Of a stretch of DNA of 48,732 nucleotides, positions 20,948 through 38,512 are shown piece after piece (within the stretch, counting starts at the first letter, position 1; every line of letters starts with the position of its first letter). Under the pieces are notes generated by a model. The model made no database searches. It saw nothing but the letters and a program-made list of their open reading frames with translations, and was not told where the DNA came from. This stretch comes from Bacilli bacterium (GTDB taxonomy: Bacteria > Bacillota_I > Bacilli_A > RF39 > UBA660): contig JAFVEF010000022.1 of the NCBI GenBank assembly GCA_017478105.1, forward strand, positions 1-48,732, in the 5' to 3' direction. The position numbers and the translations under genes are program-made.

Positions 20948-21674
20948 CTAATCTCCCCAATTCATATAATAAAATACTACAAGCAATAGAAACATTCAAG
21001 CTTTCAACTTTAGAATTCATTTTTATATATAAATTATTATCACATAAATCAAGTATTTCAGAAGAAACTCCACTACCTTCATTACCCATAACTAAGGCCC
21101 AATACTTAGAAGGAGAAACTCTTCGTACATCAACACCATCCACAACATTAGTTCCATATACAATAAAATCTTTTTCATGTAACATATTTATAGTTTCTAT
21201 TATATCAGCATATACAATATTTATATGACAAAACATTCCTTGAGTAGATCTTAAAACTTTAGGATTATATAAATCTACTGAATTAGGTGATAACACAATA
21301 GTATCTACATTAAAACTAACACTACTCCTAATTATAGTTCCCAAGTTACCTGGATCTTGTATATTATCAAGTATTACTATTCTATTTCCAATAATAGAAT
21401 CATCTTTTTTTCTACACAAAGCCATAATAGCAGGAGGTGTATCTAAAGAAGATATTTTTTTCATAACATCATAACTAACATACATAACAGGTATATCATA
21501 ATTACAATTATAATCTTCTAAACAAATAACATTAATAACTAACCCAGATTTAAATACCTCTTCAACTAAATGTTCACCCTCTACTAAAAAAGTCCCAGTT
21601 AAATCTCGATATTTTTTCTTTTGTAATTTAACTAATTCTTTTACTTTATCATTTTCTAAACTAGTAATAACCAT
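20940..21674 (-). CDS. TrmH/SpoU family rRNA 2'-O-methyltransferase
   Basis: Cytoplasmic RNA ribose methyltransferase, 244 aa. The N-terminal substrate domain contains 'FLVEGEHLVEEVF'. The SPOUT knot motifs are 'VILDNIQDPGNLGTIIRSS' (motif 1), 'WALVMGNEGSGVS' (motif 2) and 'ESLNVSIACSILLYEL' (motif 3). The equivalent Bacillus gene, ysgA, lies between sspI and pheS, and here sspI and pheST are also close by. The start overlaps the stop of the metallopeptidase gene (TAATG). Confidence 0.92.
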   Translation of the reverse strand: MVITSLENDKVKELVKLQKKKYRDLTGTFLVEGEHLVEEVFKSGLVINVICLEDYNCNYDIPVMYVSYDVMKKISSLDTPPAIMALCRKKDDSIIGNRIVILDNIQDPGNLGTIIRSSVSFNVDTIVLSPNSVDLYNPKVLRSTQGMFCHINIVYADIIETINMLHEKDFIVYGTNVVDGVDVRRVSPSKYWALVMGNEGSGVSSEILDLCDNNLYIKMNSKVESLNVSIACSILLYELGRLDG

Positions 21675-22312
21675 TAAAACTCCTTCATTTCTTCTCTATA
21701 TTTTTTATAATTAGGAATATTTTCTCCTACTAAAGACCAAAAACCTCTAGAATGATCTCCATATATTAAGTGACTAAGTTCATGTACAATAACATAATCT
21801 AAATAAACAATATCTCTTTTAATAAGTTCTAAGTTAAGTGTTATAACATGAGTATTTACATTACAAACACCCCATCTACTAGTCATTTTACGTATTCTAA
21901 GACTAGGTATTGGAATATTTCTTGAAAAATTATCAATCCAATAATTAAATCTCTCAGTAAATAAAACTTTAGCCTGTTTTTTATACCATTTATCAACATC
22001 AAAATCATGATTCATATAAACTTTATTTCCAGCAAAGGAAATATCTTTATTATCACAATAAATAACTACATATTGATTACCCAAATAATTAAATCCCCTA
22101 TTATTAGATATTTTTTTTTCTTGAAAATCAATCATATCACAAATCTTATCATAATTATCTTTAATAAGCTTAATTATAAAACTATTAGGAGTTAAATATC
22201 CAGTAGTAACTGTAACACATAAGTCTTTTTTTACTCTAATATATGTATTCTTTTGACCTCTCTTTTTATCTACAACAATCTTATATTCTTTTCCGTTATA
22301 ATCAAATTGCAT
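21674..22312 (-). CDS. YgjP-like (M48-related) metallopeptidase
   Basis: A 212-aa protein of the YgjP/DUF45 family. 'VIVHELSHLIYGDHSRGFW' carries the zinc ligands His177 and His181, the catalytic Glu178 and the third ligand His187. 'RKMTSRWGVCN' upstream is the family's other conserved block. The biological substrate is not known for this family. Start ATG 22312 has AGGTGG eight bases upstream; the longer frame to 22345 lacks one. First gene of a run into the rRNA methyltransferase, rimM and trmD. Confidence 0.88.
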   Translation of the reverse strand: MQFDYNGKEYKIVVDKKRGQKNTYIRVKKDLCVTVTTGYLTPNSFIIKLIKDNYDKICDMIDFQEKKISNNRGFNYLGNQYVVIYCDNKDISFAGNKVYMNHDFDVDKWYKKQAKVLFTERFNYWIDNFSRNIPIPSLRIRKMTSRWGVCNVNTHVITLNLELIKRDIVYLDYVIVHELSHLIYGDHSRGFWSLVGENIPNYKKYREEMKEF

Positions 22313-22347
22313 ATTATCCACCACCTCTATTTTACAATAAATCATAA

Positions 22348-22377
22348 GAAAAAGAAATAGAATAAAATATCATATTA
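22348..22377 (+). promoter_or_regulatory. Possible sigma-G type promoter of sspI
   Basis: GAAAA at 22348-22352, then exactly 18 bases, then CATATTA at 22371-22377. The sigma-G consensus is GHATR-18-CATWHTA, so only one base differs. Caveat: the same bases read on the other strand as TATAAT (22374-22379), which could serve the divergent metallopeptidase gene. Confidence 0.35.
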
Positions 22378-22406
22378 TAAATCATAATAACTATAGGAGG
22401 AATAAT

Positions 22407-22634
22407 ATGGATAATAGTATAAGACATCATATAATTAATAATTTTCAAGGAGATGACTTTAACACTCTAAGAAAAGCAATAGATGAATCAGTAAAAACAA
22501 AAGAAGAAGTAAATCTTCCAGGACTGGGAGTATTTTTAGAAATTATTTGGGAAAATTCTACTCAAGAATTAAAAAATGAAATGATAGAAATAATAAGAAA
22601 AAGAGTAAAAAAAGGTTTAGATGAAAACATCTAA
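22407..22634 (+). CDS. sspI: Small acid-soluble spore protein, SspI family
   Basis: A 75-aa protein that matches Bacillus SspI along its length: 'RHHIINNFQGDDFNTLRKAIDESV' against R-H-x-I/V-x-x-N, then the family core 'LPGLGVFLEIIWEN', then 'KNEMIEII'. SspI is a minor protein of the dormant spore core made under sigma-G. It is one of only two plus-strand protein genes here, preceded by AGGAGG at six bases. Its neighbours, an rRNA methyltransferase gene and pheST, are also its neighbours in Bacillus. This implies a sporulating ancestor or a spore-forming organism. Confidence 0.85.
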   Translation: MDNSIRHHIINNFQGDDFNTLRKAIDESVKTKEEVNLPGLGVFLEIIWENSTQELKNEMIEIIRKRVKKGLDENI

Positions 22635-22646
22635 ACCTTTTTCTCT
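22611..22646 (+). terminator. Strong terminator inside the end of sspI
   Basis: A thirteen-base-pair hairpin (arms 22611-22623 and 22628-22640, AAAA loop) followed by T-rich TTCTCTATT. The upstream arm encodes the last residues of SspI and the stop codon (22632-22634) lies in the downstream arm. Confidence 0.92.
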
Positions 22647-22700
22647 ATTATGTTCAAAATCATAATATTAATAAAATCTTCCATATATCTTTAAAAACTA

Positions 22701-22724
22701 AAAAAGAGAATAATTCTCTTTTTT
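22701..22724. terminator. Bidirectional terminator between serpin and sspI
   Basis: Ten-base arms AAAAAGAGAA/TTCTCTTTTT (22701-22710, 22714-22723) flanked by A and T runs on both sides, placed between converging genes. Confidence 0.8.
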
Positions 22725-22726
22725 AT

Positions 22727-24391
22727 CTATTTTACAATTGGTTCGTAAACAGTACCAGTAAACCATACTTCTCCAGTAGCTTTATCACGAATTAAATACA
22801 TATATGGTTTATCAAAAGTAACATCAATATTTTTTACAGGTACTTTAAATAAATGTTCAAAATAAGGACCTCCTGCTGCACCAAATCCTCCCATAGCAGT
22901 TGCAGCTGAAGCTTTAATACCATCATTAGAAAACTCAATATTAGCTTTATGCTTTACATCACCAATATATTGTTTTTCTCCATCACCAAGCATCTTAGTA
23001 AGATTTGCTTTATTGACATCAAAAACATCTTTAATTCCCAATTTTTGTAAATCTTCCATTAGACTTAATTCATATTCAAATTTAAAGAATGGAATAAATC
23101 CTCTAATTCTAGTAACATAACCTTCTTCAAAACTATCAATATTAACTACTTTTAACTTATTAATAATATCATTTAATTCTTTCTTATTTGTATTCTTAAC
23201 AAAATCAACAAGTGGAAGAGTCTTTGGCATAATACCTATGTATTGTAAGTTCATTCCCTCATACTCTTGTAAATCTTTCGCAAATACTCTTACATTATCA
23301 TCCTCATGTAGAGAAAAATCAGTTGAATTTGCACTTTTACCATAATTTTTATTCAAATCATCAATAAAATCAACAATAAACTCTTCATAAGGAGGATCAT
23401 TTTTTCCATCCTCAGATTTTAACCATTCTTCATATTCAGGTTTAATAATTTCTTTTATTTTATCTTCCCCTAAATCTTTTACTATGTCATATTTATTAAA
23501 ATCAGCTAAAACATGAGCTCCTTTAGTTTTTTCTTTTCCATTAAAAACATTTTTACTATCATATCTTTCATAGAATTCATCTTCAGATGAATAAGGATAT
23601 TCAGTAACACTATAATATCTATCTGCATCATCTTCAAGTTTTTCATGTAAATAGGATATACCATATGTTCCACCACCAACACAAGGTATTTTATGATCAG
23701 TTGTACAGTGAATTTGATTTGTCCAATTCATATCGATTGCTAAAGCATTAACTAAATAGAAATTAGCATCTTTTACTTTAGAATCATCTACTAAGTTTTC
23801 AATTAATTTAAATGTTTTACCACTTACCCAATTATTAATAGTGCTAGCATCATTAAATTCATCATAAACAACTTCAGCACCATATTTATTTGTCAATTTA
23901 GTAGTATAATCACTTAAAATATTCTCCTTAAAAGTATTTCTAATAAACATTGCATTCGCAAAACTCATATGATCATTATTAGGATAACTCTTTGCAACAT
24001 AATCACCAATAACCGCATCTAACTGTTTTTTAGTCTCACCACTTGCTCCTTCCGCAAGTATCTCAAGTGCATATTTAATAGATAATGGACTATATACTTT
24101 ATTCTTTTCTTCATTTTCAAGTTTCATAAAATATAAATCAAAATCTTCTAAAGAGTTTCCTGATATACGATATTCAGACTTATATTCTTTATTATCAGTC
24201 TTAGCCTTTTCAGGTTTAACTTTATTTTGATTAAGTAGATAAAAACCTCCCAATGATAAAACACAAAGTAAAACAACTCCAACCACAACCCCAACTAATA
24301 CTTTTTTCTTATTTTTACCACCAGTAGTTGAAACATTCTGTTCTGTCTGTTCTAAAACATTTTCATTTTTTATTTTCTTGTTTTCTTCCAT
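22727..24391 (-). CDS. Membrane-anchored serpin-type protease inhibitor
   Basis: A 554-aa protein: cytoplasmic tail 1-30, membrane segment 31-53, and an outside serpin domain. 'NKVYSPLSIKYALEILAEGASGETKKQL' is the serpin N-terminal helix and hinge. 'NLQYIGIMPKTLPLVDFV' and 'RGFIPFFKFEYELSLMEDLQKLGIKDVF' are the shutter and breach region. The reactive loop starts near residue 489 with small residues (GIKASAATAMGGFGAAGG) and ends before 'FDKPYMYLIRDKATGEVWFTGTV'. The domain is longer than usual because of an acidic insert after residue 230. The likely role is inhibition of host or competitor proteases at the cell surface. GTG 24397 is a worse start than ATG 24391. Confidence 0.9.
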   Translation of the reverse strand: MEENKKIKNENVLEQTEQNVSTTGGKNKKKVLVGVVVGVVLLCVLSLGGFYLLNQNKVKPEKAKTDNKEYKSEYRISGNSLEDFDLYFMKLENEEKNKVYSPLSIKYALEILAEGASGETKKQLDAVIGDYVAKSYPNNDHMSFANAMFIRNTFKENILSDYTTKLTNKYGAEVVYDEFNDASTINNWVSGKTFKLIENLVDDSKVKDANFYLVNALAIDMNWTNQIHCTTDHKIPCVGGGTYGISYLHEKLEDDADRYYSVTEYPYSSEDEFYERYDSKNVFNGKEKTKGAHVLADFNKYDIVKDLGEDKIKEIIKPEYEEWLKSEDGKNDPPYEEFIVDFIDDLNKNYGKSANSTDFSLHEDDNVRVFAKDLQEYEGMNLQYIGIMPKTLPLVDFVKNTNKKELNDIINKLKVVNIDSFEEGYVTRIRGFIPFFKFEYELSLMEDLQKLGIKDVFDVNKANLTKMLGDGEKQYIGDVKHKANIEFSNDGIKASAATAMGGFGAAGGPYFEHLFKVPVKNIDVTFDKPYMYLIRDKATGEVWFTGTVYEPIVK

Positions 24392-24419
24392 AAACACTCT
24401 CCTTACCCTAAGGATAGCA

Positions 24420-24449
24420 CAAAAAAAGAGATAAATCTATTTATCTCTT
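24420..24449 (-). terminator. Terminator after pheT, spanning its stop codon
   Basis: Minus-strand hairpin with ten-base arms (24426-24435 and 24440-24449), loop TAGA, then seven T. The pheT stop (24437-24439) overlaps the loop. It separates pheT from the serpin gene. Confidence 0.9.
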
Positions 24450-26806
24450 AATTCAGCATTATGAGTTGACACAACCTTGTCAATTATCTTATTAAAGATA
24501 ACCATAACCTCTTCATCAGTTAAAGTATGGTCAACACCATTGAAAGATAATGAAAAAGCAACACTCTTCTTATTAGAATCTATTTTATCTCCTTCATAAA
24601 TATCAAATACAGAAACAGTTTGTAAAGTTTTATTAGAAGCTTTTTTAATAGTATTTATAACTTCAGATACATCCAGTTTCTTATCTATTATAAATGCCAT
24701 ATCTTTTTCAATACTTGGATATTTAAATGCTTCCTTATATTTTAATTTAGAAGTTTTTCCATATAAACTATTTAAATTAAGTTCAAATACATAAATATCT
24801 TTCTTAGTAATATTAGGATGAACTTTTCCTACAATACCTATCTTCTTTCCATCTAATATTATATTTGCCCCTACTCCAGGATGTAGGTCACTACAATCAC
24901 TTCTTATAAAACTATAACGACCATTATATCCCATATAATCTAGTAAATTTTCTAAAATACCTTTTACTACATAAAAATCAACTTTCATAGATCCTTGCCA
25001 AGTATTAGTTAAATAATTACCAGTTAATAGTCCACATATTTTAGTAATTTCATCATAGTTAGTATCATATGTTTTCGCAATTTCATAGATTGAGATATCA
25101 CTAACTCCACGAGCTTTATTATACTCATATACATTCATTAAAGATGGAATAAGTGTTGTTCTTACAATACTTTTATCAAGACTCATTGGATTAGGTAAAT
25201 GTACTTGACTTCTATCTTCATAAATAAACTTAGAAGCCATTTCAGGACTAACTAATGTATATGTTTTTACCTCAGTTAAACCTAAAGTACGAAGTCTTTT
25301 ACTAACCATCTTACGATATTTAACATCACCAATATATTCTCCTCTTCTAACACTAACAGTTGGAACAGAAGAAACAATATTATTATAACCATATAATCTT
25401 CCAATTTCTTCCGCAATATCGTTAACATTACAATCAATATCAAGTCTACGTCTTGGAATAGTTACTGTAAATACACCATTTTTATATTTAAATGGAAAAT
25501 CTAATCTATCTAATTCCTTCTTCATATCATCCTCAGATATTTTCATACCAAGAATTTGATCTACATCACTTGCTTTAAATGATAATACTTTATCTTCATG
25601 ATTTTCATTATCTACTAGAATATAACCATCTAAAACTTCCGCACCAGCATATTTTTCTAGTAAATGACAAGCTCTCTTAGAAGCCATTTCTGTATATTCA
25701 AAAGATAATCCTTTTCCATATCGAATAGAAGCTTCACTAGGTAAATCTAACTTACGTGATGTATACCTAATAGATACTGGATCAAATATTGCTGATTCAA
25801 TTAAAATATTTTTAGTATTTTCATCTACCTCAGTATTTTCACCACCCATAACTCCGGCAATACAAACTGATTTTTTACCATCAGTAATTACAATATCATC
25901 ACTATCTAAAACTCTTGTTTTTCCATCTAAAGTAACAATTTCTTCTTTATCTTTAGCATCCCTAACAACAATTTTATCTCCTAATTTATCTTTATCAAAG
26001 AAATGAAGTGGTTGTCCAAATTCAAGCATAACATAATTAGAAATATCTACTACGTTATTAATAGGCCTCATTCCTGCTGCCAGTAATCTTTTTTTAATAA
26101 ATTCAGGAGATTCTCCAATTTTTACATTACGAACTTCTCTAGCCATATAATAACTACATTTACTAGTTTTTACTTCTAACTTGAAATGATCATTTATTTT
26201 TTCTTTAATAGTTTTAAACTCAAGACTAGGTAAAGTTACTTTTCTATTTAAAATACATGCAATCTCATAAGCAAATCCAATATGGTAATAGCAGTCATTA
26301 TTACGATGTTTATGAATATCTAAATCATATAAAGTATCATCCAAACCTAAATAAACAAGAGGATCTTCTCCAACAGGAGCATTATCATCTAATTCTTCTA
26401 TACCTTTACTATAGTTTTCTTCAGTTTTCTCTTCTAAACCAAGTTCAAATAAAGCACAAATCATTCCACAAGATTCTACTCCACGAATCTTACTTTTTTT
26501 AATTTCAAAATCACCCGGAAGGATTGAACCAACTTTCGCAACTATTACTTTTAAGCCTTCTTTAACATTAGGAGCTCCACATACTATTTGTAATTCTTCA
26601 TCACCTACATCTACCACACATATATGTAAATGATCACTATCAGGATGATCAGAAACACTTAGTATTTTACCAATTACTAAATTATCAATATGATGAGTAA
26701 CAACTCCTTCAACATTAATTCCTGCTTTAGTAATTTTTAATGCAAGTTCATTAACATCTTGATCTTTAATATCAATGTAGTCTCCTACCCAATTTAAACT
26801 AATCAT
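24437..26806 (-). CDS. pheT: Phenylalanyl-tRNA synthetase beta subunit
   Basis: Beta chain of the alpha2-beta2 enzyme that charges tRNA-Phe. 789 aa, full length. The order is: tRNA-binding OB domain of about 40-150 (HPDSDHLHICVVDVG, IVCGAPNV), the B3/B4 editing domain including 'PINNVVDISNYVMLEFGQPLH', the B5 domain with 'IPRRRLDIDCNVNDIAEEIGRLYGY', and a C-terminal anticodon-binding FDX-ACB domain (YPSIEKDMAFIID). The start overlaps the pheS stop (TAATG). Expression is governed by the Phe T-box at 28504-28713. Confidence 0.97.
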   Translation of the reverse strand: MISLNWVGDYIDIKDQDVNELALKITKAGINVEGVVTHHIDNLVIGKILSVSDHPDSDHLHICVVDVGDEELQIVCGAPNVKEGLKVIVAKVGSILPGDFEIKKSKIRGVESCGMICALFELGLEEKTEENYSKGIEELDDNAPVGEDPLVYLGLDDTLYDLDIHKHRNNDCYYHIGFAYEIACILNRKVTLPSLEFKTIKEKINDHFKLEVKTSKCSYYMAREVRNVKIGESPEFIKKRLLAAGMRPINNVVDISNYVMLEFGQPLHFFDKDKLGDKIVVRDAKDKEEIVTLDGKTRVLDSDDIVITDGKKSVCIAGVMGGENTEVDENTKNILIESAIFDPVSIRYTSRKLDLPSEASIRYGKGLSFEYTEMASKRACHLLEKYAGAEVLDGYILVDNENHEDKVLSFKASDVDQILGMKISEDDMKKELDRLDFPFKYKNGVFTVTIPRRRLDIDCNVNDIAEEIGRLYGYNNIVSSVPTVSVRRGEYIGDVKYRKMVSKRLRTLGLTEVKTYTLVSPEMASKFIYEDRSQVHLPNPMSLDKSIVRTTLIPSLMNVYEYNKARGVSDISIYEIAKTYDTNYDEITKICGLLTGNYLTNTWQGSMKVDFYVVKGILENLLDYMGYNGRYSFIRSDCSDLHPGVGANIILDGKKIGIVGKVHPNITKKDIYVFELNLNSLYGKTSKLKYKEAFKYPSIEKDMAFIIDKKLDVSEVINTIKKASNKTLQTVSVFDIYEGDKIDSNKKSVAFSLSFNGVDHTLTDEEVMVIFNKIIDKVVSTHNAELRDK

Positions 26807-35740: not shown

Positions 35741-38512
35741 CTAATTAAATCTATATCCATAAGCACAAGTATTATGTCCCCAGCAACAAGAATTATATGT
35801 GCAATCATTCACTGTATACGAACAAGGATCCCAATAAGATGTTGTGGTTGTTATCGTCTTTCTACAACCATGACAACACTCATTACTAGAAATATATTGG
35901 TGATCACAATAGAACATATCGACACATCCGGCATAGCACTTATATCCATTATAATTAAATCCATGAGCACCAAGTGATACTATCCATATGTCATCAATAG
36001 TAGTTGTTGTATTATATTTTGTTTCCCCACGACAAGAATAAGGACTACCAGTACAACATGAACTAGCTCGACAAGTATTTTCTCCTGAATAACAACTAAT
36101 ATATGTTACACTTCTCCGGTTACTTCTCGTCAAGCCAGCATTGTTTACACAAGTTAATGAAACCGAACCTCCACTAACAGTAGTAGATACACGAGATTGT
36201 CTTACACCTGATTGGGGATCGGAACAATCAACATACGCTTCACGCTGATTATATCCAGTAGGTTTAACTGCACTTATTTCAGGAGCTGTTTTATCTATTT
36301 TAACTGTTTGGTTTGCAGGACATTTTTTTGAATTACCTGCATTATCATATACCGTTCCAGGGCTTTGATTTGTTAAATTAAATGACACATCAGGATAATA
36401 TAGCTTATATACATTACCAGCAGAATATGTAGTTTTTATTTTATTAGAATCTGAACCACTTCCATTCTTACATCCACTAGTTGCATCTGAACAAGTACCT
36501 TTTAAAGTAATATTATTAGGTGTCCAACCACCTCCACCACTTGAAGTACAATTAGGTGCCACCGTATCAACCCATATATTCGCAGGAGTAGGATATGGAG
36601 TACAATTCATCGCAACATCACATGCCTGATATGTAATTGTTGATTTACCATTAGCTTCAATATTTCTATATGTACCAACCTTGTTTTTCTCATTAGTAGT
36701 TGCTCCAGTTGTAGTATAACGATAAGAAACTTTACTTAAATTATCAGTAGAACCACTAGGAATTGTAAATACTCTATATTTACTCCATGTCCCTGGAGAA
36801 TAAGTACTTAATCCATCACTCTTATTAGGTCTTGTATCATTATTTTTCCATTTATAATATCCAATTGTTGGAGCAGTTGGTCTAGTATAATCAATATTTG
36901 CTTCTATCTTATAAACTGTTTTATTACCAGCCTTATCTTTAACAGTTAATTCACCATATCTCATACCTTCTTGAGTAAAGTATACAATCAACTTATCACT
37001 TCTGATTCCACAATTATTATGAGTCATATCAAGTCCTTGATCATAATTTTTAGAGAAACCATCAGGATTATTTACATCTACTTTTTTATAATCACCAGAA
37101 CTACTACTCTTAATATTTTTCTTATTAGTTTTCCATGTTAGAGAAGATAAATGAATACCATCAGTAACTGTTATTTCATAAGCAACTCCCTTAGGAAACT
37201 TTTCATTAAACCACCCATTTTGTAAATTAGCTTTACTATTATATGCATTATAACCAACACTTACAGTAGCATGATTTGTATTATTTGATGTTTTTATTAC
37301 ACTATCTGCAAATAATCCATCCCCTTCTTTTCCACCATCTTTTGCTTTATAAGCCTGAATAGTTACTTTAGGAGACGTTCTATCTACAAATACTTTAACT
37401 CGACAACTATTTTCCACATAATTCATGTCACATACAGAACTATTTTGTAAATAATCATCACTGATACTTTTATTACCGGCATTATCTCTTACTTGAACAT
37501 AAGCATATTCCGCTTCTTTTTGATAATCATTTGGCCAAGTCATAGCAAACTTATCACGAATACATCCACTACCTTCACCATCATTACACATCATAACAAT
37601 AGTACGTTGTTCACTTGATAAACTATTTTTATTAATCCATTCGTTAACTTCTTCCCCATTTGAATCAAGCTTACAAGTAGGAGGCGTTGTATCATGATAT
37701 ACGCCAGATTTATCTGAAGAACCATTAGTTTCATCACCTGTACTAAATATTTGTGAAGCTACACCACCTTCAGAGTTTCTTACATTAACCTTTAAAACTA
37801 ATTCAGTTGCTGTTGTAATATCAACATATTCACTTAAAGGTTTATCAATATGTAAAACTGCTTCATTATTAGCACTTAAACTTCCTGAAGAATATAGCTC
37901 CCGTTCTTCTTCATTATCTCTAACAGATATAGTAAAATTATATCCCTCAATCTTAACTTTTTTATTTTCACTACTTACTTCATCTTTTGATCCATAAATA
38001 GTAATTTTTAGTCTAGCTGAAGATACATTTTGAATAGCACCATCTTTAATAACCAAATTACTTTCATCTGAACTTGTAAATTTTGCTTCAACACGAGGTT
38101 CATTTTTTGCAGATTCACTTTCCCTCGTTTCACTACCACAATATAAATATGCAGTATATTTATAATCACTCTTAGACTTCTTTACTACTTTTACATAAGA
38201 CTCTTTCATACAAGATTCGCCTTTGCCATTCTTAATATCCGATTTCAAATAATTATTACTTCTTAAAGTACTAGCACTTACTTCATTAGATTCACCTATT
38301 TCTTTAGGTAATTCACTTCTATTTTCAGCATAATAACTTTGTGCAGCCATCAATAGCATATTCTTACTATGTGAATCAGAATCTTTTTTACTACGATTTA
38401 TAAGTCTAGTAACTGATACAATAGCAATTAAAGAAATAATACCAAGTATTAAAATTGCCCCTAATAGTTCAATCATTGAAAAACCTTTTTTATTATTCTT
38501 TACAAAGTTCAT
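35741..38512 (-). CDS. Giant type IV prepilin-like surface protein with Ig-like repeats and Cys-rich end
   Basis: A 923-aa protein beginning with a class III signal: 'KKG' then 'FSMIELLGAILILGIIS' (Gly at -1, Phe +1, Glu +5), the substrate of prepilin peptidase. Ordinary pilins and pseudopilins have about 100-170 residues. Here the helix is followed by Ig-like segments marked by 'DTTPPTC', 'VDRTSP', 'YTRPTAP', 'VDTVAPNC' and 'DKTAPEI', many ending in '(D)NAGN'. The last 115 or so residues hold about 16 cysteines, several in pairs. The form suggests an adhesin exposed on a pilus or at the membrane. No prepilin peptidase, pilus ATPase or other com genes are in the window. Confidence 0.88.
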   Translation of the reverse strand: MNFVKNNKKGFSMIELLGAILILGIISLIAIVSVTRLINRSKKDSDSHSKNMLLMAAQSYYAENRSELPKEIGESNEVSASTLRSNNYLKSDIKNGKGESCMKESYVKVVKKSKSDYKYTAYLYCGSETRESESAKNEPRVEAKFTSSDESNLVIKDGAIQNVSSARLKITIYGSKDEVSSENKKVKIEGYNFTISVRDNEEERELYSSGSLSANNEAVLHIDKPLSEYVDITTATELVLKVNVRNSEGGVASQIFSTGDETNGSSDKSGVYHDTTPPTCKLDSNGEEVNEWINKNSLSSEQRTIVMMCNDGEGSGCIRDKFAMTWPNDYQKEAEYAYVQVRDNAGNKSISDDYLQNSSVCDMNYVENSCRVKVFVDRTSPKVTIQAYKAKDGGKEGDGLFADSVIKTSNNTNHATVSVGYNAYNSKANLQNGWFNEKFPKGVAYEITVTDGIHLSSLTWKTNKKNIKSSSSGDYKKVDVNNPDGFSKNYDQGLDMTHNNCGIRSDKLIVYFTQEGMRYGELTVKDKAGNKTVYKIEANIDYTRPTAPTIGYYKWKNNDTRPNKSDGLSTYSPGTWSKYRVFTIPSGSTDNLSKVSYRYTTTGATTNEKNKVGTYRNIEANGKSTITYQACDVAMNCTPYPTPANIWVDTVAPNCTSSGGGGWTPNNITLKGTCSDATSGCKNGSGSDSNKIKTTYSAGNVYKLYYPDVSFNLTNQSPGTVYDNAGNSKKCPANQTVKIDKTAPEISAVKPTGYNQREAYVDCSDPQSGVRQSRVSTTVSGGSVSLTCVNNAGLTRSNRRSVTYISCYSGENTCRASSCCTGSPYSCRGETKYNTTTTIDDIWIVSLGAHGFNYNGYKCYAGCVDMFYCDHQYISSNECCHGCRKTITTTTSYWDPCSYTVNDCTYNSCCWGHNTCAYGYRFN

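Follow-up and report, generated by a model that had tools for sequence, protein, structure and literature searches.

The 48,732-nucleotide stretch of DNA analysed here (contig JAFVEF010000022.1 of a Bacilli bacterium, GTDB order RF39; hereafter, the window) carries a gene for an unusually long serpin. An earlier note, made from the sequence, had placed a membrane-tethered serpin between sspI and pheT, and both neighbours were borne out by profile matches (Table 1). The 554-aa protein matches the Pfam family Serpin (PF00079) with an E-value of 2.2e-45 and 155.9 bits against a curated cut-off of 27, and the alignment runs in two stretches (profile 15-169 and 215-370) that are interrupted by an insert. 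An AlphaFold2 model was computed from 22 sequences, the window protein and its relatives, and gave a mean pLDDT of 80.6 and a pTM of 0.76; the body and the insert are well predicted, and the loop at residues 494-508 is undefined. The predicted model adopts the serpin fold, with a Z of 35.2 over 343 aligned residues and an rmsd of 2.9 against antithrombin (1r1l), and a Z of 32.2 against tengpin (2pee). Residues S101, S104, N215, W223, and H481 show at least 90% conservation across the 22 aligned rows of the window serpin and its relatives, and we take them to be the shutter and breach residues that correspond to S53, S56, N186, W194, and H334 of antitrypsin. A FliL identity of the reading frame was rejected, as it scored 22.9 bits against a cut-off of 179 and the match was confined to the N-terminal anchor.

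Together, the profile match, the resemblance to solved serpins, and the single predicted N-terminal helix uphold the reading of a membrane-tethered serpin. The charges that flank the helix are alike on both sides, so we infer the outward orientation of the serpin domain from the cysteine pairs described below and from the family. Membrane anchoring of prokaryotic serpins, such as Clotm-serpin 3, is already known (PMC8233489 and PMC6718151); these proteins share the anchored location with the window serpin, and the available parts of their descriptions mention no insert or loop brace.

Table 1. Position of the serpin gene, its parts, and its neighbours in the window.
Feature	Residues	Position	Strand	Basis or remark
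sspI, neighbour		22407..22634	plus	PF14098, 1e-18; TIGR03092, 59.1 bits over cut-off 58.35
pheT, neighbour		24437..26806	minus	Pfam; pheS adjoins
Long-type serpin gene	554 aa	22727..24391	minus	ATG at 24391, stop codon 22727-22729
Single transmembrane signal-anchor helix (predicted)	32-56	24224..24298	minus	Predicted model
Extra region	224-366 (143 aa)	23294..23722	minus	39-43 aa in the ordinary type
Cys229-Cys237 pair of the s4C hairpin, probably a disulfide	229, 237	23681..23707	minus	Of 32 relatives, 26 have both, 5 have neither, 1 has one alone
Inserted helical hairpin	303-350	23342..23485	minus	Holds the covarying cysteine in 13/39 relatives
Reactive loop, hinge to P3'	489-508	22868..22927	minus	Model (494-508 with pLDDT <50) and alignment
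Extra C-terminal loop half (PYFEHLFKVPVKN)	509-521	22829..22867	minus	Confidently placed in the model

The long type with its insert and lengthened loop half

Serpins were found in 30 of the 59 genomes searched, including 25 of the 35 other genomes of the same genus, and the earlier remark that serpins are sparse in bacteria therefore does not describe this genus. Two classes can be told apart: ordinary serpins (~420 aa), present in 14 of the 36 same-genus genomes, and the long type (about 530-640 aa), present in 24 of the 36 (one copy being a fragment). A profile search of 395 genomes of the class returned full-length long-type matches (E <1e-180 against the long-type profile) in eight genomes from seven genera, all in the window's family; the remaining 24 genomes with a match gave partial, ordinary-serpin matches only. 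The window serpin is a member of this lineage-specific long-type subfamily.

The region that matches residues 224-366 spans 119-157 aa in 41 long-type rows versus 39-43 aa in 18 ordinary rows; the short rows also include a 19th, L052, which is a truncated long-type serpin. The ~100 extra residues sit between strand s3A and the B-sheet, bounded by a strand that ends at residue 223 and a strand that starts at residue 367. In the model, they form an enlarged hairpin, presumably s4C-s3C since the strand names were assigned by comparison with the antitrypsin topology, and a helical hairpin at about residues 303-349. The acidic insert that had been noticed after about residue 230 was found to start near residue 224 and to be mildly acidic, with 30 D/E and 16 K/R in residues 224-350. 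Searched by itself, the insert matched no Pfam family, and its best match among the PDB sequences reached only an E-value of 0.28. A second difference concerns the P' half of the loop, which has 14-19 aa in the long type versus 7-10 aa in the ordinary serpins (rows having it), and residues 511-520 of the window protein have a mean pLDDT of 90. The insert and the longer P' half occur together in every long-type member.

Tengpin of Thermoanaerobacter (PDB 2pee/2pef), also a bacterial serpin and the top Foldseek match with 25% identity over 335 aligned residues, differs in that its 387-residue chain aligns without the 100-residue insert and with an ordinary P' loop half. The ordinary ~420-aa serpins of the same genus share the anchoring style and the fold family of the long type, but they have no insert, a shorter P' half, the canonical hinge GTKAAAVT, and a variable loop core. 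A published tree of prokaryotic serpins (groups S, T, and U) is reported to have dropped sequences more than 25% over the median length as well as non-conserved insertions (PMC8233489), and a serpin of 554 aa would probably not have passed these filters. Among the literature entries returned by our searches, judged at the level of the entry, no fitting serpin insert, C-sheet insert-loop coupling, loop disulfide, or rumen serpin was found. On these comparisons, the protein is an ordinary kind of serpin, and the proposed braced design of its bait loop looks new.

Hinge, cleavage site, and conservation of the reactive loop

The loop rich in small residues to which the earlier note had pointed, SAATAMGGFGAAGG, begins at residue 495, and the canonical 17-residue count from P17 puts P1-P1' at A505-A506, both small as claimed. 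The hinge is compatible with inhibition: P15 Gly and P12 Ala are present in 32 of the 32 complete long-type relatives, P10 Ala and P8 Thr are each found in 31, and the small residues at P12-P9 are retained. It departs at P17 Asn, P14 Ile, and P13 Lys from the consensus ExGTEAAAA given for P17-P9 of inhibitory serpins (PMC8233489).

Apart from a few deviations, the loop core (P5-P1) has the form GGxG-Ala/Ser, and it is no more variable than the rest of the protein. The mean pairwise identity of the long type is 0.649 in P5-P1 versus 0.555 in the whole protein, whereas the corresponding values for 11 ordinary serpins of the genus, a count that excludes five incomplete or distant ones, are 0.218 and 0.46. 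Where both types are found in one genome (nine genomes), identities are 0.63 in the loop core and 0.64 in the body for the long type, as against 0.25 and 0.47 for the ordinary type. The loop core equals or exceeds the body in 18 of the 36 genome pairs for the long type and in 3 of the 36 for the ordinary type; these figures contrast two gene families and are not a selection test. A P5-P1 segment more variable than the body, as would be expected of host-directed gut serpins with a fast-evolving loop, was not found in the long type, and the fixed loop core speaks mildly against a host arms race. Since the core is conserved, the target is probably constant and accepts small P1 residues (Ala/Ser).

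These data bear on the proposal that the anchored serpin inhibits a host digestive or neutrophil elastase and thereby shields the cell in the gut, which we consider unlikely. The P2 Gly, present in 30 of the 32 relatives, is not a classical elastase choice, and the loop core is conserved in the long type but variable in the ordinary serpins of the same genomes. The small P1 and P1' residues are the one pointer to elastase inhibition itself, and the named relatives come, according to their titles, from rumen, goat, sheep, and rabbit gut assemblies. A precedent is provided by the siropins of Eubacterium siraeum, serpins of a human gut bacterium that likewise have a small-residue hinge, which are reported to inhibit neutrophil elastase and proteinase 3 (PMC5127057). 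They differ from the window serpin in that inhibition of human proteases has been demonstrated for them, the comparison being one of description and not of sequence, and they are reported to leave porcine pancreatic elastase uninhibited (PMC5127057); hence, gut origin does not predict that activity.

A further possibility, which we regard as quite doubtful, is that the long type is a non-inhibitory serpin whose braced loop acts as a binding or structural element, like HSP47 or ovalbumin. The conserved loop core with its unusual glycines, the P14 Ile and P13 Lys, and a possible disulfide tether would suit such a role, and HSP47 chains are among the fold matches, alongside many inhibitory serpins. 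However, P15 Gly, the small P12-P9 residues, and P8 Thr are retained almost without exception, and the loop is predicted to be disordered instead of packed. One outlier, the long-type serpin of locus L068 (4492-6183), has a degenerate hinge and loop (LKAAEYSSSKIKKESSC) and is perhaps no longer inhibitory, which illustrates what a loss of inhibition might look like.

Cysteine coupling and a possible brace of the loop

In 39 complete long-type serpins, we compared the presence of a loop cysteine near P3' with that of a cysteine in the helical hairpin; the incomplete rows L049, L052, and L076 were excluded from these and from the loop counts. Both cysteines are present in 13 proteins, both are absent from 26, and in no case does one stand alone. 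The association has a Fisher p of 7.8e-9 on the first 32 serpins with kinship ignored. On a tree built without the two cysteine columns, each position changes seven times and the two change together, and all six independent supported pairs agree with the coupling (sign test, p 0.031). Two of the cysteine-pair cases belong to other genera (L109 and L113). Past the anchor, only five cysteines in all 39 proteins lie outside residues 224-350 and the loop. The window protein itself is without the hairpin-loop pair and has only Cys229-Cys237. In the model of a cysteine-bearing relative (L047), the loop has a pLDDT below 50, so the hairpin-loop contact is not confirmed by that model.

Because the cysteines are coupled, the insert probably touches the bait loop, through a disulfide in some members; the pairs also fit an outward-facing serpin domain. 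It is highly improbable that the coupling reflects chance and kinship and that the insert is an independent decoration of the surface. The tree does hold just seven changes, and 14 of its 38 inner branches are poorly supported, but 39 of the 39 proteins agree, the pairs arise at several distinct places on the tree and extend to two other genera, and the insert is never seen without the longer loop.

The reading that we favour, and to which we would give an even chance, is that of a membrane-anchored, outward-facing inhibitory serpin with the C-terminal half of its loop docked on the added hairpin. A protease would cut the bait loop near A505-A506, and the N-terminal loop half would insert into sheet A, dragging the trapped protease along as in the standard serpin mechanism. 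The lengthened C-terminal half would dock onto the helical hairpin at the end of the C-sheet, and a disulfide near P3' would secure it in some relatives. Such a brace could fix the loop geometry, give the protease a second contact surface, and hinder the release of strand s1C, without which a serpin cannot pass spontaneously into the inactive latent form. More tentatively, the lineage-specific insert might clamp the C-terminal loop half by packing in most members and by the disulfide near P3' in a third of them, block the latent transition, and preset the loop for one constant cell-surface protease, with perhaps a redox switch in the cysteine-bearing members. Serpins need a mobile bait loop, so a built-in holder of one half would be unexpected and informative on how the metastable state is guarded.

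Judging from the loop sequences, the most likely targets of a serpin braced in this way would be proteases encountered at the surface of the bacterium's own cells or those of its kin; a host enzyme that evolves fast would be less likely. Subtilases are present in 9 of the 39 genomes of the genus and papain-like proteases in 21 of the 39. One or the other occurs in 20 of the 22 genomes with the long type versus 4 of the 11 without it (Fisher p 0.002), a union chosen after both single results were known (subtilase, p 0.21; papain-like, p 0.024). When kinship was allowed for, about 3.7 pairs were for and 1.0 against, out of 7 (sign p 0.375), on a 33-genome tree that excludes G009, G016, and G024, for which no YgjP locus was found or retrieved, as well as G429, G430, and G431. 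Neither a subtilase nor a papain-like protease was found in the window's own genome, which is 86% complete and encodes two HtrA-like proteases. Trypsin-family proteases are present in 39 of the 39 genomes of the genus, so no association with the long type can be tested for them. Some genomes of the genus encode large subtilases (L118-L121), and the four looked at are all signal-anchored. With fixed-loop and variable-loop serpins in the same genomes, a housekeeping target can be distinguished directly from an arms race.

The pheT-YgjP gap as a cargo slot

The long serpin lies in the gap between pheT and YgjP, around sspI, in at least 13 of the 33 same-genus genomes examined, once as a fragment at a contig end; the true number may be higher because some of the loci are at contig ends. 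Another nine of the 33 have it at a different place, and one genome has two long serpins in tandem at this site (L056). Genomes without the long serpin at this site have different signal-anchored proteins or an ABC transporter gene there, or an empty gap, and pheT is in some cases replaced by another gene. Since the occupants vary across genomes, the gap is better described as a cargo slot than as the site of a single recent insertion. The earlier suggestion that the gene was gained among conserved neighbours, in connection with life on a host, is not supported by this variable slot, and a recent acquisition was rejected: the G+C content of the gene equals that of the window (0.277 vs 0.279), and the long type is found in 24 of the 36 same-genus genomes and in seven genera of the family. 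A mobile or phage origin was likewise rejected, as there was no plasmid match, no viral-contig relative, and one weak match to a phage record, covering 30% of the query. This record (L143; MT835777.1 8739-15254), an unverified phage entry from human faeces, matches serpin residues 58-225 with 30.6% identity. A dedicated partner gene was also rejected, because no neighbour outside the pheT slot recurs in more than about three loci.

The slot corresponds to positions 21674-24437 of the window and to loci L100-L105 and L128-L142. A frequent occupant is a signal-anchored protein of ~280 aa that begins MKKRxxxSEIExAK, one copy of which was scanned and had no Pfam match. The pheST genes beside the slot are a divergent version (~30% identity, L058) or are absent, with HAD or frr adjacent, in L058, L068, L074, L116, L117, and L142; a divergent pheT is found elsewhere in the genomes G001, G015, and G029. 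The YgjP matches of G010, G015, and G023 (L139, L142, and L105) contain in-frame stops, which means that either the gene or the extended match is interrupted in these genomes. Elsewhere in the window, positions 35741-38512 encode a protein of 923 aa that has a cysteine-rich C-terminus and, at its N-terminus, a prepilin-type methylation motif (PF07963).
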